NCBI RefSeq assembly: GCF_964019385.1
Contig: NC_088646.1
Coordinates: 9,505,580-9,569,579 of the forward strand
Source: Sycon ciliatum
Taxonomy: Eukaryota; Porifera; Calcarea; Leucosolenida; Sycettidae
Reading direction: 5' to 3'
DNA: 64,000 nt
Each line of letters opens with the position of its first letter. Position 1 is the stretch's first letter. A model generated the notes under the pieces. That model made no database searches, had not been told where the DNA came from, and saw only the letters and a program-made list of their open reading frames with translations. Made by a program: the position numbers and the translations under genes. Positions 34,455 to 61,466 of the stretch are shown piece after piece.

Positions 34455-40427
<5,973 letters not shown>

Positions 40428-45893: not shown

Positions 45894-46862
45894 TCACTCC
45901 GAGACTTCTTGGTTTTCTTCCCACTCCTTCCAGATGGCAATTTTCCGACGGCCCGCCGAGTCTTGCATGGCGCGCGGCATTGCTTGCGTACTGTGCTGCA
46001 TCACACACCCACCGTCGCTGTCAATGGCGATGACGCCACCGGAACCAGCGGCCATCGCGCTCATCTCCCTCTCGCACGCATCCTGCAGCGACAAGCCCGC
46101 ATAGTCCATGGCCGCGCAGATACGACCGCATGTGTTGTGGTAGAGGAACACCTCACCCTTGCCTGTTCCACACACCCCGGCGCTCGATCCAGCATAGCAG
46201 CCACCGCCTATGATGGGGGAATCCCCAACTCTGCCACGCATCTTGTCGATTGTGCCTCCAGTAGAAACAGCACAGGCGATATTGCCCTGCTTATCTTTAG
46301 CAACGGCACCGACAGTGCCACGGCAGTGCTCGTTAACATCTGCTCCGTCCTGCCCCGACGCCGTTTTCTTGGCTTCGCGAACTGCCTGCCATGCTTTGAA
46401 TCGCCGCTCAGTGTGGAAATACTGGTGAGTCTCTGTCCTGAGTCCATGCTTAATAGCGAACTCCTCAGCCGATGGACTTGTAACGAGTGCGTGTGGGGTG
46501 TTGCTCATGATCTTCTCGGCCGCCAGGATAGGATTTCGGATTCTCGACAGTCCCACACACGCACCGCAGTGGCCACGGTTATCCATAACTTGGGCGTCCA
46601 TCTCAAACAGGCCGTCCTCATTGAACAATGATCCGTGACCAGCATTGAACAGATCACAGTCTTCCAGAGCCATGACTGTTTCAATGACGGCCTGCGTGGC
46701 TATGTTCAGATGAGCATAGGGAGAGAACGAGGGCGGCGAGCGCTCGGAGAGAACACTCGCACCACGATCCAGACAGGCCGCTAACGCATCTTTGTACTCC
46801 TTGCGATCTTCGTCAAGACTCACGTTTTCAGCACCACCGTGAAGCGCCAACGTCCAAGACAT
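45894..46862 (-). CDS. ASRGL1: Isoaspartyl peptidase/L-asparaginase (ASRGL1-like), copy 1
   Basis: A single-exon ORF of 322 codons starting MSWTLALHGGAENVS, the canonical N-terminus of the plant/animal-type asparaginase family of Ntn hydrolases. These clear beta-isoaspartyl peptides and hydrolyse L-asparagine after self-cleavage in front of a catalytic threonine. The predicted nucleophile is T183 in RGTVGAVA, followed by the substrate-binding RVGDSP (211-216) and GTGKGE (232-237). All key positions are present and the length is close to human ASRGL1 (308 aa), so activity is plausible. No signal peptide. Intronless, like its paralogue at 52590-53606, in contrast to the intron-rich neighbouring genes. 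Stop at 45894-45896. Confidence 0.93.
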   Translation of the reverse strand: MSWTLALHGGAENVSLDEDRKEYKDALAACLDRGASVLSERSPPSFSPYAHLNIATQAVIETVMALEDCDLFNAGHGSLFNEDGLFEMDAQVMDNRGHCGACVGLSRIRNPILAAEKIMSNTPHALVTSPSAEEFAIKHGLRTETHQYFHTERRFKAWQAVREAKKTASGQDGADVNEHCRGTVGAVAKDKQGNIACAVSTGGTIDKMRGRVGDSPIIGGGCYAGSSAGVCGTGKGEVFLYHNTCGRICAAMDYAGLSLQDACEREMSAMAAGSGGVIAIDSDGGCVMQHSTQAMPRAMQDSAGRRKIAIWKEWEENQEVSE

Positions 46863-48406: not shown

Positions 48407-49319
48407 CATGTTTTCAACAAAACAAGGTATATTTAATGCCATTCCCTCAACTTCCAGCAGTTCGTATTCATTGAAGTACATGTATGGCCATAATGGGGCG
48501 GCTCCTAGAAGGTTAAGGAACGAAATGTGACGTGTAGGTGTGTGAACCTCTCGCACTGGCCCATCATCTTTGGCAATTCCTTCCCCATACTGGTCCATAG
48601 CCATGCAACCATTACTTTCCAGCGGCGAGGTAAAAATGGTTCTCCTCCGAATCACCATGACTCGCGTACACCGTGACCGATGTTGGAGCGAGTGGCTTTT
48701 TGCCCTACGAATGTAGTGCCAAGCGCTCGAGCCGGCCCAGAAGCTGGGTGTATGTGTGTGTGCGCACGCACGGCTGCTGTCGTGCCATGCTGTTGTTCAG
48801 CCAGCATGGGGCCTTTTAGTAGCGTGTCCAAAATGGCAAGAAGACGTGTACGTAAGACAGAGAAAGTGTTTTAACTCTGCGTTACATGACCAGTGAAACT
48901 AAGAGTTACTTCAGTATAGTACCCTGGGTATAATATCGTGACCTTTCTTTTTGGCTTGGATATAAAGCACCTTTCCAGACCCTGGCCTGGGCATCCTTTT
49001 CCAGACCCTTGCCCTCGGATATACAATGTACAGGAACAATTCCTGAGAATGAAGTCGAAGACACCACTGCAGCTGTACTTATGGTTGATAAATATGGTGG
49101 CGAAGACACACCTGGCAATATGGCGGTAAACACACGCCTGCCCACACACGCTCTCTAGGCTGCAAAGTTCTGTCACAGAGCTCTCCTTCTCACCACCACC
49201 ACCATCAGTTCGCGCCTGCGGGCGCCTGGGCGATGCATGGCTGGCGGTATCCGGCATAGCAGGCTGGTACATCAAGTAGCGCATGGCACATAGATGATGA
49301 CACAGCAACGACATAGCTC

Positions 49320-49363
49320 GATTGCGACGTACGTTTCGTCCCCGCTGGACTCATCAGGCAATC
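49320..49363 (-). ncRNA. Type-I hammerhead ribozyme, satellite copy 1
   Basis: Minus strand, in order: stem I GATTGC, core CTGATGA, stem II GTCC, loop AGCGG, stem II GGAC, core GAAA, minimal self-complementary stem III region CGTACG, then TC and stem I GCAATC. Cleavage is expected after GTC. All conserved core bases are present and both stems pair perfectly. The very short stem III with its ACGTACGT palindrome suggests action as a dimer. Confidence 0.93.
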
Positions 49364-49674
49364 TTCTTCTTGGATGTCTTCATACGGAGCTTGACTCGTG
49401 AGAATGAAGTCGAAGACACCACTGCAGCTGTACTTATGGTTGATAAATATGGTGGCGAAGACACACCTGGCAATATGGCGGTAAACACACGCCTGCCCAC
49501 ACACGCTCTCTAGGCTGCAAAGTTCTGGCACAGAGCTCTCCTTCTCACCACCACCACCATCAGTTCGCGCCTGCGGGCGCCTGGGCGATGCATGGCTGGC
49601 GGTATCCGGCATAGCAGGCTGGTACATCAAGTAGCGCATGGCACATAGATGATGACACAGCAACGACATAGCTC

Positions 49675-49718
49675 GATTGCGACGTACGTTTCGTCCCCGC
49701 TGGACTCATCAGGAAATC
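49675..49718 (-). ncRNA. Type-I hammerhead ribozyme, satellite copy 2
   Basis: As copy 1, but stem I reads GATTTC, giving one internal mismatch next to the core. Probably weakened. Confidence 0.88.
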
Positions 49719-50029
49719 TTCTTCTTGGATGTCTTCATACGGAGCTTGACTCGTGAGAATGAAGTCGAAGACACCACTGCAGCTGTACTTATGGTTGATA
49801 AATATGGTGGCGAAGACACACCTGGCAATATGGCGGTAAACACACGCCTGCCCACACACGCTCTCTAGGCTGCAAAGTTCTGGCACAGAGCTCTCCTTCT
49901 CACCACCACCACCATCAGTTCGCGCCTGCGGGCGCCTGGGCGATGCATGGCTGGCGGTATCCGGCATAGCAGGCTGGTACATCAGGTAGCGCATGGCACA
50001 TAGATGATGACACAGCAACGACATAGCTC

Positions 50030-50073
50030 GATTGCGACGTACGTTTCGTCCCCGCTGGACTCATCAGGCAATC
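50030..50073 (-). ncRNA. Type-I hammerhead ribozyme, satellite copy 3
   Basis: Identical to copy 1 across all 44 positions. Confidence 0.93.
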
Positions 50074-50384
50074 TTCTTCTTGGATGTCTTCATACGGAGC
50101 TTGACTCGTGAGAATTAAGTCGAAGACACCACTGCAGCTGTACTTATGGTTGATAAATATGGTGGCGAAGACACACCTGGCAATATGGCGGTAAACACAC
50201 GCCTGCCCACACACGCTCTCTAGGCTGCAAAGTTCTGTCACAGAGCTCTCCTTCTCACCACCACCACCATCAGTTCGCGCCTGCGGGCGCCTGGGCGATG
50301 CATGGCTGGCGGTATCCGGCATAGCAGGCTGGTACATCAAGTAGCGCATGGCACATAGATGATGACACAGCAACGACATAGCTC

Positions 50385-50428
50385 GATTGCGACGTACGTT
50401 TCGTCCCCGCTGGACTCATCAGGCAATC
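50385..50428 (-). ncRNA. Type-I hammerhead ribozyme, satellite copy 4
   Basis: Identical to copy 1 across all 44 positions. Confidence 0.93.
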
Positions 50429-50666
50429 TTCTTCTTGGATGTCTTCATACGGAGCTTGACTCGTGAGAATGAAGTCGAAGACACCACTGCAGCTGTACTT
50501 ATGGTTGATAAATATGGTGGCGAAGACACACCTGGCAATATGGCGGTAAACACACGCCTGCCCACACACGCTCTCTAGGCTGCAAAGTTCTGGCACAGAG
50601 CTCTCCTTCTCACCACCACCACCATCAGTTATGCTATGCCGGATACCGCCATGCCGGATATGCCGC

Positions 50667-51064
50667 TGCTATGCCGGATACCGCCAGCCATGCATCGCCC
50701 AGGCGCCAGGCGCGAACTGATGGTGGCGGTGGTGAGAAGGAGAGCTCTGTGCCAGAACTTTGCAGCCTAGAGAGCGTGTGTGGGCAGGCGTGTGTTTACC
50801 GCCATATTGCCAGGTGTGTCTTCGCCACCATATTTATCAACCATAAGTACAGCTGCAGTGGTGTCTTCGACTTCATTCTCACGAGTCAAGCTCCGTATGA
50901 AGACATCCAAGAAGAATATTGCCTGATGAGTCCAGCGGGGACGAAACGTACGTCGCAATCGAGCTATGTCGTTGCTGTGTCATCATCTATGTGCCATGCG
51001 CTACTTGATGTACCAGCCTGCTATGCCGGATACCGCCAGCCATGCATCGCCCAGGCGCCCGCAG
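50667..51064 (+). repeat. Inverted copy of the 355-bp satellite
   Basis: About 1.1 units in the opposite orientation, after a junction of short ATGCCGGATA repeats (50635-50690). Together with the direct array it makes a long inverted repeat, so a read-through transcript would fold into a long duplex. Confidence 0.92.
50917..50960 (+). ncRNA. Type-I hammerhead ribozyme, inverted satellite copy
   Basis: Same core and stem II as the minus-strand copies. Only the outermost stem I base differs (TATTGC for GATTGC), leaving five pairs. Confidence 0.9.
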
Positions 51065-51699: not shown

Positions 51700-52010
51700 G
51701 CTATCTGGTGTTCACGAGGTGTTTGTCGCGCTGGAAACGGAGCATCTCTGTAAGTTTGTATCCCTGATGATGTTTGTGCCTGGAGAGCACTATATAAGTG
51801 GTGCTCTTCAGGCAAAATCTTCCTCAGCCTACTCAAGCTCAACTGATGAGGGGTGAATTCCCCGAAACACTGTGTATTGATCAGGGAGTGGTGCTTTCTT
51901 GCAGGTTTGCCGAGTGGAAGGTTCCATGGACTTCTCGTGTGTTCTGGATGGCAGTCGTGAGTCAGTCAATTGAGATTCAAGTCGGCAGGAATAGCGCCAG
52001 CTCCCACGTA
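51700..52010 (+). mobile_element. Dispersed hammerhead-bearing repeat (Penelope-like terminal repeat?), copy A
   Basis: Homologous in inverted orientation to 58930-59220 and partly to 24140-24300. Shared blocks include GTTTGTCGCGCTGGAAACGG, the ribozyme, GGGAGTGGTGCTTTCTTGCA and GCCGAGTGGAAGGTTCCATG. Penelope-like elements carry hammerheads of this kind in their terminal repeats (family knowledge), but no GIY-YIG or Penelope RT was found next to it. Just to the left (51540-51640), ACATGTATGTACATGTAT and GGAATAAACG are of unknown meaning. Confidence 0.7.
51837..51882 (+). ncRNA. Type-I hammerhead ribozyme in dispersed repeat, copy A
   Basis: Stem I GCTCAA, core CTGATGA, stem II GGGG with loop TGAATT and CCCC, core GAAA, minimal stem III CACTGTG (self-complementary), TA cleavage site, stem I TTGATC (one mismatch to GCTCAA). 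Confidence 0.85.
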
Positions 52011-52589: not shown

Positions 52590-53606
52590 CTAGAAGTTCT
52601 TTTCTACCCACTCTCCCCAGACTCCTATACCTCTGCGGCCAGATGACTCCTCCATCGCGCGGAGCATTCCCCTTGAGACGAAGTGGAACACCACCTTGCC
52701 GTTACTGTCCACTCCTATCACACCGCCATCACCTGTTTGCAGTTTGCCAAGTTCAGCTTCACATGCCTGTTGTAATGTAAGCTCTCCATACTCCATAGCT
52801 GCGCAGATGTGCGCACACGTCGAGTGCCTGAAGAACGTTTCACCTTTACCGGTTGCGCACACCCCGGCTTGCTGGGATGCAAAGCCCCCGGCTCCCACAA
52901 TGGGCGAATCACCGACTCGGCCAGGCATCTTGTTGGTCATACCTCCAGTGGACACAGCGATGGCAATATTGCCGTCAGTGTCTTTGACCACTGCTCCGAC
53001 TGTACCTAGCGCACCGTCGTCATGACTACCGCCATGGCCGCTCTCACGCTGAACTGGTTCAGCCTTGCCATTCTCCGTATCAATATTGTGATCCAGAACG
53101 GCGGACTTGCTGCCGTTGTGCTGTGCAATTTCTAACTGCTTGCGCCGCATCGCCGTTGTGAAATAATCCCGAGGTTCGGTGTGCAGTCCTTCGCGGACGG
53201 CAAAGTCCTCAGCTGATGGGCCTGCCAGAAAGGCATGTGACGTCTTTGTCATGACTCGCTCTGCAGCTAGTACAGGGTTTCTCACACACGTCAGCCCTGC
53301 ACAGGCTCCGGATTCGCCATCGCTGTTCATCAGCTGCGCCTCCATTTCAACCTGCCCGTCTGAATTGAGCACAGCGCCACGACCAGCATTGAACAGGTCA
53401 CAGTCTTCAAGAGCCACGACCGTCTCGATGGCTGCTTGCGTGGCCATGTTGAGGTGGCTGTAAGGCGCAAAGGATGGCGCTTGCCTGCCACACACCACCT
53501 CTACACCTCGTTGCAGACACGCGTCCAGGGCATCGCGATACGGTTTGCCGTCCAAACTTCTGCTAAGGTCCCCCGCCCCACCATGGAGTGCTACCGCCCA
53601 GGACAT
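52590..53606 (-). CDS. ASRGL1: Isoaspartyl peptidase/L-asparaginase (ASRGL1-like), copy 2
   Basis: A second intronless paralogue. I start it at the ATG giving MSWAVALHGGAGDLS (53604-53606) because that aligns with copy 1; an ATG ten codons upstream is also in frame. It is 338 codons from this start. The predicted self-processing threonine lies in ALGTVGAVV (T202 from this start), followed by RVGDSP and ATGKGE. The linker before the nucleophile is longer and Gly/His/Asp-rich compared with copy 1; this loop is removed or disordered in the family after autocleavage. The two copies are clearly homologous along the whole length, though well diverged in the linker and N-terminal half, so the duplication is not recent. 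Both are on the minus strand with the hammerhead satellite between them. Confidence 0.92.
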   Translation of the reverse strand: MSWAVALHGGAGDLSRSLDGKPYRDALDACLQRGVEVVCGRQAPSFAPYSHLNMATQAAIETVVALEDCDLFNAGRGAVLNSDGQVEMEAQLMNSDGESGACAGLTCVRNPVLAAERVMTKTSHAFLAGPSAEDFAVREGLHTEPRDYFTTAMRRKQLEIAQHNGSKSAVLDHNIDTENGKAEPVQRESGHGGSHDDGALGTVGAVVKDTDGNIAIAVSTGGMTNKMPGRVGDSPIVGAGGFASQQAGVCATGKGETFFRHSTCAHICAAMEYGELTLQQACEAELGKLQTGDGGVIGVDSNGKVVFHFVSRGMLRAMEESSGRRGIGVWGEWVEKNF

Positions 53607-55066
53607 TGGCTGCTGCAGCGTTCCGGAATTCCGCAATGGTGACTTCTCCCAGTTGAATGAATGTCGCGTCGTCCGAAGCGCTTCACAGAGCTGGACAGCA
53701 GACTGAGCAGATTAACTCCCTTTCATTCAGGTGGTTGTTCAAGGGCCAGGGTAGCTCGACACGCCGACCTACCTGTCCAAGGCGCAAAGAGAATTAATAA
53801 CTGAAAAGAACACTAGTACATCAGGAAAAAGAACTAAGGAGTGAGGAAGCTTCCCTTCGCCTTGGCGACTTGCGGATGTTTAGTTTGTTTACTGAGTACT
53901 TCCAACGACAGACAGTGCACATAGCCACTGCAGTGTGACTGTCATTGTCAGCACCGAAGCACTCGTGACTGCACACCAGCACAGGGAGTACATGTAGTAT
54001 GTAGATCTGCGTGTCATCGCTTTCCGCGTGGCACTGCTGATATTCCATCTTCACTGAGCCAGTTCAGGAAACACTTGCCAACAGAAACTGCTTCAAGCAG
54101 CTTGTCACAATCGTTTATTGCACTTATGTTTTGTAGGCTACCTTATATTCTATGGCTTGCTCTTGAGTCTTGTTTCATATCACGGTCAAAACAGCAAAAG
54201 TGACTTACGTATCATGAACATGTAGCAGGGTCGGGCCCTTGATCGAGCTTACTAACTTTATACTCGCGACTCGCGAGGGACAATCGGACAGTCGCACATG
54301 GAGTGGTGATGTATGCGGTGTGCAAGTGGATCCACCTCGACTCGTGAGTCCTGAAGTAACTCACTGCATCAATCGCCTCCCTTCTTACACGTTTACTTCT
54401 GCATAATGCTGAGTACTGTACCTCCAGTCGGATCCGGCCGATGCATCGATGGCACTGATCTGAGCCGTGAGCGGTCAAGTAACCACTTAGTTTTCAGACT
54501 ACATGTGCATGACTACTGCACTCAGTCATGATCGAAGTAAAAGTGGGAAGGGGCTTCCCGCAGCTTCATGCACAGCTAGCTAGGCAAGGGTGTGATGTTA
54601 CTGTAGAGCAGAATTGACCGTATCATGAAAACGAGCGGATTGGTCGGGAAAGAGTAGGTCTGCAACGTCCTAGTTTAGTTTTATAATTCCAAGCGATACA
54701 TGTACATGTACATGGCTGGGGCAGCCAATGATCCCCACTGTAATAAAGGGTAGCACAAGTACATACATAATGTAGTTTGAAGAAGGGCTGAGGCTTCCTG
54801 CAGCTTCATTTCTGAAAGGAATTCGGGTGGACACACCCATTCCCATCGCGCTGCACATCCGAACCAGTTGCGTTATTTTTACAACGTTTCGGCACTTGTC
54901 CATCGTCAGGTAATAACAATGAACAAGTACATGTCACCTATTAGGCTAAGCATTTTGTAACTAAAAGTGTTGTATACAACACTTATGAATTCCCCATACA
55001 TGTAGCTGCCCTGGGAAAACAAGCTGTAACCTCCATGGGAGTTACATTCGTATATACTACTTCGAA

Positions 55067-55859: not shown

Positions 55860-58800
55860 TTTGGTGTAGGTTCATTCAATGTCCACGGCTTGTCGTAAAG
55901 CCTAAAGAATCACTGCGGCAGCTGATAACCTTCGGAAATGCAAAATTTAAATTTGCAGTTTGACTAAAATAAAGGACTGTTGCGACGAGCTACAGCTGGT
56001 GACTACAGGATATTCTGCTTACCAACGGCGAACAGGCATTATGGGCTTGGGTTCGCTATTCACAACAGCCTGTTTGAGCGTGTTCATCGGGTATGGTCAG
56101 TATCAGACCGAGTGGCCGCGATCCAAATAAATGTTTCCAAGAGAACTAGAAGTACTTTATCCCTCGTCAACGTTTATGTGCAAACAAGATGATATCCACC
56201 TCGACGAGTTCTACTCAGCGCTCGGAGATTTCCTGGCCCCGGTTCCGTCACTAATACTAGTTCCCTCCTTCTCGTGGCTGGCGACTTCAATGCCAAACTC
56301 GGCCAGAGAGATGACTCCAGCGGCTCGTGCACCGGACGATATGGTCGTGGACGTCGTAGCTGCAGCGGAGCTATGCTAGCGGATTTCTGCGAGTCGTTTG
56401 GTCTCTTTGCATGTAACACTGCCTTTCGACTTCCAGCTAGGCATCTGACAACCTGGACGGGCTGGAGGCACAACCCAAACGGCGGTTGTTCTATTCCCAT
56501 AATTATATACTAGTAATCAGATAGTAGCATATTGTGTGGCAGCAACCAGAAGCAGATTTTCACAGATGCCCGATCCTATGCTGTGAAATCAGACCATCGG
56601 CTGATTCTCGCACGCGCCCCTCCGAGCAGGATCTATGGTCTGTGAGCACATAACAACAACCAAAAAAGAACCGCGAAAGCGCAGAAGTTTCAGGTCTAGA
56701 CTATAGATGGAGCAAGCATACCTGCCCGCAAAACGTCCAATCCCAACTCCCCCATCAGATCGCCAACGGCGCAGTAGACACATCCACACCACAGTGGCAC
56801 ATCCACACCGGAAGCACACTGGACATTGATCTCATCCGTTTCATCCAGCAAACAGCAAAGAATACCGTTGGACTGGCGTAGCCCCCAAGGAAGCAACAGC
56901 GTTTCATGGATGATCAGCTACATTCCTGGTCGGAAGAGAAAAACAGTTGCGACTGCTGATAACTGCCAATTGGGCTCCACAACAAGTTAATGATCTGAAG
57001 CATCGGCGGAACACCCTCTCACACCGAATCCGGCTGCGAGCAAAGGAACTAGCATGGAATGAGCTGGACGCTCTGGCAAGGGAAGTAGAAACAAAGAGAA
57101 ATACGGCACAGATGTTTCATGTAGTCCATCTACTCCGGCGACAAACACAACAGCCTATCACTGTGCATGATGAAACGGGTAGACAAATAATACAGCCAGA
57201 CTCAGTAGCCATCCAAATCACCCACCACTTTTCTAAGCTGTACACGCCAGAGCCTGGTGTACTGACTGGCCTTGCAGCCGCCGGGCCCTACCGACCGGGA
57301 TTGCGCTATTCAGCACCATCGGCTTGAGCGGCCCATTTCTGAGGCAGAGGTGACACAAGCAGCTGGAAAGTTGAATAATGGAAGGTCAAGTGGCCCAGAT
57401 AACATGCTAGGGGAGCTGCTAAAGTACTCACCTGCCCTCGTCCACTCCAATATCACCCAGGTCCTCCACTCTGCCGTCGAGACAGGCCTACCCCTGAACA
57501 GCATCGGTAGCGGGTCGCTTATTCCGCTACAAAAGCCTGGCAAATCAAGGGGACCAGTTGCTCACCTACGGCTCGTGGTTTTACTGACAGTGCTCAGGAA
57601 GTTTCTATCATTGATTGTGCTGCAGAGGATCAACAAGGATGTCAACAATTTCGTTGCCCACACACAGAGTGGTTTCCGCCCCAGCAGAAGCACCACAGAC
57701 GTCGTCTGGTCGTATCGATGGTTGGCGGCTCGATGCCAACGCTATCGCTGTGCGCAGGATACCCTAGGCATTGATATGTCAACAGCGTTTGACTGTATAA
57801 GCAGGCCACGGCTCATCTCGGGGCTGGGATCGTTCTTGCAGCCGGATGAGATCCGAATGATCAGTTACCTCCTCCAGGATACCGTAATGCGGGTTGTACT
57901 CCCATCCGCTAAGGGCCCGTCATTTCCCACTCTTCGCAGCACACCCCAAGGTGACTTGTTGTCTCCTGTTCTTTTCATTGTGTACCTTGCTTGAGGGTGC
58001 GCTGCGTGATGTTCGTCGGCCTCTTCTTCTACCACGTCCTTCTGGTGATGTCTCCCCGGGATTACCAACTGAAACTGCCTACGCCGACGATGTGGATTTG
58101 GTGACTACTGGTGGGAGGCTGAGGACCCTCCTTCCAGCCATATCCAACAAGATCCTCGAATGGGCCGGATTTGAAAGTAAATGAGACAAAAACAGAGCAC
58201 ACACACATCAAGCGGCACACTGATCGCATCGAGGAGGAGTGGCGAACCACCAAGAAACTCGGGTCCCTATTAAGTATTAGGTGATGCCGAGGATAGGCTA
58301 CGACTACAGCAACTGGCAACTGTTGCAATTGGTAAACTCTGGACGCTGTGGATACGTAGGTCGCTAGTTTTGGAGGATCTCCGCATCCGGCTTTATAATG
58401 CCTTTGTGTGATCCCTGTGATCTGCTACAATTGTGCAACATGGACACCAACAAAGCAGCAGCTGAGCCGTGTTGAGGCCTTCCACCGAAAACAGCTGCGG
58501 GCGCTAATCAGCATTGTTTTCCCGAATCGGATGAGGAACGAGAGGCTCTATGAGCATACCGGCGCGGTTCCTCTCGGTATGATCATCTTAAGAGCTAGGT
58601 GGAAGCTCTTTGGGCACGTCCTCCGGCTCCCGGCTGACTCCCCACCATCACTGGCCATAGGAGCGTACTTCGCAGAGCCTCGTCTAGCAGGCTGGAGGGG
58701 ACGACCAAGACATACGCTGCCAATGCTACTACGAGATGATGCCAAGCGGATGGGACTTTCCTTGTCAAGCAAAGTTGATCTGGAGGTATTCCGTGCCCTT

Positions 58801-60047: not shown

Positions 60048-61466
60048 TTGTTCAAAATTGCAAACATTACACCAATTCTGAAGTCAACTCAAGGCCCCCG
60101 CGACTGCCCTTCTAACTACCGCCCAGTGTCTTTAACATCTATCCTAGCCAAGCTCCTGGAGGGGCTTGTGTTTTCTCGTATACATCTTTTTTTTAATGAT
60201 CGTTGCCCATTCCATGTGGACCAGTTTGGCTTTCGGAAGCACCGTTCTACCGGACAGCTTCTCACCAAGGTCACGAACGACTGGCTTGTCTCGCGCGACG
60301 CTGGACTGCATACGGCGGTTGTCTGTATTGATTTGAAAAAAGCGTTCGATATGGTGAAGCATCAACAGCTTCTTCTTGCTCTCGCAGCTGTCGGTATTTC
60401 GGGAGTGGCCCTGGCCTGGTTCCGATCATACCTTTGTGCCAGACAACAGCGGGTGGTTACCCACACTGGAACATCTCCGTTGGTGGCAATCACTAGTGGC
60501 GTGCCACAGGGCACCATTCTGGGTCCGGTGCTATTTAACATATATGTACGGAAGCTCCCATTGACAGCAGAGGCCTTTTCTTGCAAGCTCCCGATGTTCG
60601 CTGACGACATGACGCTGTATGCCAGCAGACGTACACAAGCTGAGGCCGTCGCTACCGTTACTGATTCGTTATCTGCAATTTCTGTGGATCTAGACGAGCT
60701 TGGGCTGCGCATTAATACAACAAAGACTGTAACTTTGATGATTTCTAAGTCTTCTCAACCCCTCTCAACTCCAATCGTTTTTAACCAACAGCCTCTGACT
60801 CAAGTGTCTAGCACGAGAATCCTGGGAGTCATTGTAGACAGTGATGTTTCTTGGTCTGGTCACATAGACTTTATCGTTAGGAAGACTTGCACGAAAATTG
60901 GCGCTCTTCGACGGTGTTTTCGGCAACTAAGTTTGAAGGCAACACGGCAGTTTATCCTCTCGGTTATCCTGCCTGACTTATTATACTGCTGCTCTTGCTT
61001 TGCAATGAAGCTATCCGCCAAGGACCGACAGCGACTCTCGTCCGTTTATCGTCGTTCTGTACGCGCTGCTTGTGGCTCGAAACTACAAGAGGACGTCATG
61101 CCGCTGTTAGCTAGATTGTCGATTGATCCGTTTGAACATTACCTTATTCGTAGCATTGCTAAATTTATCCATGTTAATCATGTCGTTTTCCCTCTCCCAA
61201 ATCTGACGGACCTTTTCCCTCAAGTTTCAACCGGCCCTAGGACAACAAGAAGCTCTTTTAATGCTGCTATTGCAATATCTAAATTCCGGACGACTGACGG
61301 TGTCAATTCCTTTTCAAATCGTGCTGCCCTGTTCTTTAATTCTTTGCCTGTGGAGTGGCGCACCCAGCACCGCACTACATTTGCTAAGCACCTTCAGACC
61401 ATGCTAAAAGACGCAGCGTCTTTTCAGAAGTATTTTGATCTTCTTTTCAGCAAACTCCCTCATTGA
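60048..61466 (+). mobile_element. LINE reverse transcriptase, 5'-truncated but open
   Basis: 472 codons without a stop, starting inside the RT at KIANITPILK with no proper start codon. Motifs in order: NYRPVSLTSILAKLLE, QFGFRKHRSTGQLL, CIDLKKAFDMV (motif A Asp), SGVPQGTILGPVLFNIY, and the catalytic MFADDMTLYASR (FADD). A long C-terminal domain has LGVIVDSDVSWSGHI and LPDLLYCCSCFAMK. This is the CR1/L2/Jockey type. The endonuclease half is missing. An intact reading frame in a truncated copy suggests recent insertion. Confidence 0.88.

Follow-up and report, generated by a model that had tools for sequence, protein, structure and literature searches.

Work published in 2020 showed that animal retrozymes produce RNA circles in abundance, born of their own ribozymes, while the enzyme that inserts them remained a guess. 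Penelope-like elements (PLEs) were proposed as the mobilisers from co-occurrence and shared traits (PMC7229834), and according to a 2020 review the repeats contain no motif from which the mobilising partner could be recognised (PMC7761336). Published PLEs carry an inverted pseudo-long terminal repeat (pLTR), a 31-bp tail that is optional at one inverted pLTR and a 9-bp duplication, and head-to-head is their commonest arrangement (PMC3846280). In the Anolis PLE, two internal start sites of the reverse transcriptase (RT) delimit the tail, and cutting and extension affect both strands of the target (PMC11167929). Here we describe a hammerhead-bearing tandem repeat at 49044-51064 of a window from the calcareous sponge Sycon ciliatum, the window being the whole stretch of 64,000 nucleotides that was analysed, located on a 42.3-Mb contig (NC_088646.1) of a 538-Mb assembly. 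In the size of its unit, the type of its ribozyme, its tandem form and its dispersal, the element fits among the metazoan non-LTR (lacking long terminal repeats) retrozymes. An earlier note on this DNA had likened it to metazoan and plant retrozymes and knew of no description of the family, which needs correction, since the kind has already been described (PMC7229834).

Our analyses indicate that the locus is probably one insertion of a non-autonomous metazoan retrozyme that was inserted in trans by a PLE, a reading that we hold with good confidence. Head-to-head inversion, a tail at one end and short target duplications are common to the retrozyme and to PLEs, and therefore a PLE reverse transcriptase is the most likely inserter. 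The features of the locus, together with a PLE remnant located outside the insertion, are the following:

49044..50630, minus strand: antisense-reading arm, 4.47 tandem units of 355 bp (Tandem Repeats Finder and unit comparison)
49044..49082, minus strand: 'tail' (RNA positions 244-282) in the terminal unit, flanked by candidate initiation sites 1 and 2 (position arithmetic from the predicted cut sites; matching end positions in other copies)
49320..49363, minus strand: hammerhead 1, RF00163 35.4 bits, E 3.7e-05; predicted cut between 49326 and 49325
49675..49718, minus strand: hammerhead 2, one stem I pair broken by a change, RF00163 33.2 bits; predicted cut 49681/49680
50030..50073, minus strand: hammerhead 3, RF00163 35.4 bits, E 3.7e-05; predicted cut 50036/50035
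50385..50428, minus strand: hammerhead 4, RF00163 35.4 bits, E 3.7e-05; predicted cut 50391/50390
50631..50665, no strand: arm junction with GCTATGCCGGATACCGCC micro-repeats
50666..51064, plus strand: inverted sense-reading arm, 399 bp, ending at RNA position 110 rather than at site 1 or 2
50918..50959, plus strand: hammerhead 5, located in the inverted arm and lacking one base of stem I, RF00163 30.8 bits; predicted cut after 50954
54779..54910, minus strand: PLE 3' region remnant with tail and a hammerhead-like motif just upstream, 71.5% identity to L022 (a PLE locus of the host), E 3.7e-10

The direct array (49044-50630), whose RNA sense is the minus strand, was resolved by Tandem Repeats Finder into 4.5 copies with a period of 355, 99% matches and no indels, and its units show 99.4-99.7% identity to the window consensus (GC content of the window unit, 53.8%). 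The presence of an inverted copy was substantiated: the piece at 50666-51064 is 98.5% identical to the 355-bp unit and is separated from the direct array by a junction of 35 nt (50631-50665) that contains the micro-repeats. One base variant occurs only in units 1 and 4 of the five, that is, three units apart, a spacing that either a trimeric circle serving as template or gene conversion could produce.

Copies of the element are dispersed in the genome: the exact pattern CTGATGAGTCCN{3,8}GGACGAAACGTACGTC gave 817 matches and its reversed control pattern gave 0. The 100 places listed are all on one contig, C1, and correspond to 63 sites in 75 Mb, or to 56 if a duplicated block at 69.4 Mb is set aside. 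Among these places the commonest same-strand spacing was 352 (13 cases), followed by 345 (4 cases); the majority unit has 352 bp (GC content of 52.8%), and the window unit is a variant that is 3 bp longer and has further differences. All 12 listed C1 sites of mixed orientation read minus then plus, that is, head-to-head, and seven of them fall in loci that were also fetched for the analysis of ends. Thus, the designation of the array as a 355-bp satellite is right as to its period, but what lies here is a single insertion, and the element to which it belongs is dispersed and flanked by target duplications in 18 of 25 further copies. Exact hammerhead-pattern matches were absent from the viral and prokaryote collections, as were matches to the 355-bp unit from the plasmid collection. 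At 69.38-69.46 Mb of C1 (L030, L031, L054 and L055) there is a repeated block in which shortened retrozyme units, with part of the unit missing, lie about 147 bp apart.

The analysis of insertion ends used 25 of the 29 insertions fetched, all on C1 and selected because 61 bases around the hammerhead matched exactly; the four loci of the rearranged 69.4 Mb block and one older fragment in L043 were left out, and L001-L008 overlap places covered by L027-L031. The hammerhead is more highly conserved among copies than the rest, which was not used as evidence, given that the copies were selected by that match. RNA positions are counted from the first base past the cut. The insertion is head-to-head in 17 of the 25 cases, with the antisense arm followed by the sense arm and the RNA 3' ends outward, and single-armed in the other eight, so that the inverted copy of the window is not incidental. 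Most outer ends cluster at two places inside the RNA, about 36 nt apart: in the 352-bp unit, site 1 covers positions of about 237-248, and site 2 those of about 273-284. Every head-to-head copy with both ends assignable (14/14) has one site-1 and one site-2 end, an outcome with a probability of about 6 in 100,000 under equal use of both sites, while in the remaining three (L041, L046 and L047) only one of the ends falls at a site and the other lies elsewhere; among single-armed copies, seven of eight end at site 1. Besides, exact target duplications of 10-14 bp flank 18 of the 25 copies, and in a chance control cross-paired left and right flanks (26 loci, window included) reached 8 bp in 3 of 650 pairings. 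In the window copy, the left end (49044) corresponds to site 2.

Divergence between opposite arms of one insertion was 0.95%, compared with 0.75% between units of the same arm and 2.81% between different insertions. Moreover, opposite arms were closer to each other than the mean to other copies in 16 of the 17 insertions with enough overlap (window included; the exception is L047), and this likeness within insertions indicates that both arms derive from one RNA sequence. The 5' ends are scattered, and only one of 42 (L048) lies clearly at the cleavage site; since the flank of L033 runs about 8 nt further, leaving that single case, a 5' end at the cleavage site was rejected as proof of a ribozyme-cut template.

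The longest frame in the array has 154 amino acids and spans more than one unit, and it matched 96 open reading frames (ORFs) on ENA contigs that resemble repeat read-through ORFs, many of which extend from the repeat into the flanks. The relevant stretch is present in 94 ORFs; 18 of these continue through it, and 76 are junction candidates that exit the repeat, 45 at RNA positions 230-254 and 17 at 272-284, whereas some of the other 14 resemble frameshifts; several ORFs run antisense then sense. Because their consensus equals the majority Sycon unit and they may come from the same species, these ORFs are taken as support and not as an independent lineage.

A genome search for the GIY-YIG domain, in which the best 150 of 944 candidates were scored, gave at least 13 matches. 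L022 and L023, two PLE loci of the host, have long frames in which an RT region lies upstream of a C-terminal GIY-YIG domain; the RVT_1 match is below the cut-off in L022 and is not reported in L023, so that the RT assignment of the latter rests on its likeness to L022. Both loci, as well as L017, are head-to-head, with a tail of about 35 nt at one end, a tail-less other end and duplications of 11-13 bp. The same organization was found in L026, which belongs to a diverged family (about 65% identity) and has a tailed left end, a tail-less right end and a 12-bp duplication. Altogether, the host PLEs with both ends in the fetched stretch show one tailed and one tail-less end in 4 of 4 cases, a count that leaves aside L010 and L011, which look head-to-head and have their outer left ends outside the stretch, and L025, which has one arm only. 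A hammerhead-like motif is present in L010, L011, L017, L018, L019/L022, L020/L023, L025 and L026. In the window, no PLE coding match was found. The diverged PLE remnant of the window (54740-54960, minus strand) has a hammerhead-like motif, a GGGTGTGTCCACCC hairpin and the tail ATGAAGCTGCAGGAAGCCTC, and a similar tail motif occurs in the L022 and L026 families.

Five type I hammerheads are found at the locus, four on the minus strand at a spacing of exactly 355 and one on the plus strand in the inverted arm, in keeping with the count, spacing and strands given in the earlier note. The Rfam search that it had advised detects all five, but only three reach the RF00163 gathering score of 34 bits; hammerheads 2 and 5 fall below this score and have stem I defects, and hence not every hammerhead is intact, as a full layout in every unit would demand. 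In the window, a full-hammerhead descriptor matched five sites, namely four of the five locus hammerheads and a further one at 51843; 150 dinucleotide-shuffled windows gave no match. The site outside the array (51839-51880, plus strand) is a different full match, with stem II GGGG/CCCC and CTGATGA...GAAACACTGTGTA, about 800 bp from the array; it is absent from the Rfam search results of the window. A weak hammerhead-like match (24.6 bits, below the gathering score) lies at 39000-39050 on the minus strand, adjoined by what looks by eye like a foldback repeat with arms near 39060-39260 and 39560-39780.

The palindrome of stem III (ACGUACGU) was suggested to favour a two-molecule ribozyme, and modelling of the fold points in the same direction. 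Stem III, ACGTACGT, can form 2 bp and a GUAC loop within one molecule or 8 bp between two. A single core is predicted to prefer a non-hammerhead fold (-10.5 vs -7.7 kcal/mol for the hammerhead), whereas two cores are predicted to co-fold exactly as a double hammerhead at -30.0 kcal/mol, a result that only 1 of 300 random octamers replacing stem III also gave. This preference for paired cores fits the axolotl retrozymes, whose dimers cut better (PMC7229834), and we predict that the Sycon hammerheads act mainly in pairs. In the folding of the majority unit RNA, 66% of the bases are paired.

The insertion by a PLE could proceed through the following steps, of which the expression of the retrozyme, its self-cleavage and the circles are those that we infer. 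Copies would be transcribed by read-through, the transcript would be cut by hammerheads mainly acting in pairs, as the folding predicts, and a host ligase would close the monomers into circles, as published retrozymes suggest. The PLE endonuclease would then cut both target strands with a stagger of 10-14 bp, in keeping with the duplications seen in other copies, and each cut strand would prime reverse transcription at one of the two internal sites, one each, on the same RNA. Synthesis of the complementary DNA (cDNA) may run around the presumed circle more than once and thus yield the tandem units that are observed, and the two cDNA ends would finally be joined into the head-to-head structure found in the copies. 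A more specific model, which is about as likely as not and which we put forward tentatively, is that two reverse transcriptases of one PLE dimer copy one hammerhead RNA circle, with the ends of the staggered cut priming at the two tail-flanking sites, the polymerases running in the same direction and the cDNAs joined head-to-head, in every full insertion. If true, the pairing of a tailed with a tail-less end would characterise PLE-type insertion in general, in animal retrozymes and PLEs alike.

A variant of the PLE reading, in which the PLE machinery inserts linear multimers of uncut transcript and neither circles nor ribozyme cleavage matter for insertion, is quite possible, though less likely than not. 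Ribozyme mutants of the Anolis PLE left insertion in vitro unaffected (PMC11167929), and such a variant would also suit the scatter of the 5' ends, with L048 alone clearly at the cleavage site, and the base variant in two of the five window units, which a uniform monomer circle would not be expected to give without later change. Against it speaks the likeness of arms and units within an insertion, though a young donor array would yield such likeness as well.

Mobilisation of the retrozyme by a non-LTR retrotransposon of the long interspersed nuclear element (LINE) type, with inverted copies arising by ordinary twin priming, seems unlikely. In LINE twin priming the inverted piece begins anywhere within the RNA, unlike the outer ends described here, which lie at two internal sites with one of each in all 14 assignable copies. 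Moreover, the 25 flank pairs have no common poly-A or simple-repeat end (three copies are in ATT repeats on both sides), and the matching footprint, 4 of 4, was seen in host PLEs, to which the comparison of host elements was confined. Duplications of 10-14 bp would suit LINEs equally well, 15-bp duplications at Nematostella hammerhead repeats have been interpreted as LINE-like (PMC4918200), and the window itself has RT frames without a GIY-YIG match at 57272-57994 and 60048-61466. That the array is satellite DNA formed by unequal crossing-over and inversion at the DNA level, with the hammerhead as a passenger, is very improbable, because the high identity of the window units to their consensus and the apparent local amplification of shortened units at 69.38-69.46 Mb of C1 are set against 63 separate C1 sites among the matches listed, duplications at 18 of 25 copies, fixed ends and the likeness of opposite arms.

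Several observations weigh against an insertion by the PLE machinery as outlined above, or restrict its scope. The sample of insertions comes from one contig and was picked by an exact match across the hammerhead region, and 7 of the 25 copies have no duplication by our criterion. The right end of the window copy, at RNA position 110, is off both sites and shows no tail pattern, perhaps through later truncation, and the flanks of this copy share only 6 bp (GTACAG), a length that chance can give; a longer duplication was sought there and none was found. The fold of the circular unit (-110.0 kcal/mol vs a mean of -113.9 for 100 shuffles; z +0.7) has no excess stability. The comparison of the retrozyme unit with 18 GIY-YIG loci by blastn gave no similarity, and Rfam reports no hammerhead in the PLE loci L022-L026 despite the hammerhead-like motif. 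The likeness of the tails is modest: AGCTGCAG is at the same place in the retrozyme and PLE tails, with a post hoc p of about 0.002 (472 of 200,000 random stretches), local alignment of the tails gave p of about 0.02, and the match of the last 80 nt to three PLE families was equalled by 20%, 3.5% and 3.5% of random stretches, a null that may still contain retrozyme copies. Finally, the start site did not differ between strands for the Anolis PLE in vitro, and consequently the rule of one end of each kind is not explained by that work (PMC11167929).

Around the array, the window contains two uninterrupted isoaspartyl peptidase/asparaginase frames on the minus strand, one on each side (45894-46862 and 52590-53636). 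Among the matches listed for the first, two ENA relatives (68% and 60%) are followed by the second copy of the window (51%), and further matches are at most 42%, except for a short one of 44% and one of 43%, with many bacterial names. In addition, a 23-bp minisatellite with 138 copies and long open frames on the minus strand occupies 34866-38042. No tRNA was found in the window, and the unit has no polymerase III box, TATA or polyA motif.

In the open-access literature, with preprints and most subscription journals outside, our searches for hammerheads turned up no paper that treats Sycon ciliatum or uses the word Porifera, and those for Penelope none that deals with Sycon. What we consider new is the insertion footprint, which comprises the head-to-head form, the 10-14 bp duplications and the two-site ends, described here for one species; it is counted as new because the main text of PMC7229834 is silent on inverted copies, and other retrozymes may well have them. 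This footprint points to an enzyme class, places two candidate initiation sites on an RNA of 352 nt and offers a test system of clonable size. Besides, the finding of one tailed and one tail-less end in 14 of 14 retrozyme copies and 4 of 4 PLE copies suggests a rule for the poorly known insertion mechanism of PLEs.

Among known systems, the newt and salamander satellite hammerheads belong to unrelated hosts. Their stem III palindrome differs in sequence from that of the Sycon retrozyme. Similar to the Sycon element are their units of about 330-350 bp, their type I hammerhead and their stem III, which is weak and palindromic (PMC7229834). Plant LTR retrozymes share with the element a hammerhead-bounded unit that is non-coding, in Sycon probably so, and a circular intermediate, which in Sycon is a presumed one, but they differ in having a type III ribozyme, LTRs with a primer-binding site (PBS) and a polypurine tract (PPT), 4-bp duplications and circles of 600-800 nt (PMC4918200). 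In the Sycon array no LTR, PBS or PPT turned up, although no dedicated method was aimed at these. The closest correspondence is with the metazoan non-LTR retrozymes of coral, mussel and axolotl (Cervera and de la Pena 2020, PMC7229834), which likewise have a type I hammerhead, dispersed copies, units of 170-400 nt arranged in tandem as dimers or longer arrays and, where duplications of the target are present, a length of more than 4 bp for these; they encode no protein, as is probably also true of the Sycon unit. Among them, axolotl HHR_Amex2 also has a stem III of 2 bp with a tetraloop, and its dimers cleave better. Unlike these retrozymes, whose GC content is below 50% (PMC7229834), the Sycon retrozyme has 53%, a difference that is descriptive and not mechanistic, and its RNA is no more folded than shuffles, unlike the highly self-paired retrozymes published. 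Also unlike the metazoan description, the majority of the Sycon insertions examined have a head-to-head form and two 3' ends that are internal, and the words inverted, head-to-head, tail and sponge are absent from the main text of PMC7229834. With respect to PLEs, the retrozyme hammerhead differs in having a full stem II and a stem III, and the array has no RT or endonuclease frame (none above 154 amino acids), the ORFs with RT and GIY-YIG being present only in separate host PLEs. PLEs (PMC3846280; PMC11167929) nonetheless have several traits in common with the Sycon retrozyme: repeats inverted head-to-head, a 30-40 nt tail at one of the two ends, target duplications that are short, copies in full or partial tandem and a type I hammerhead-like motif.
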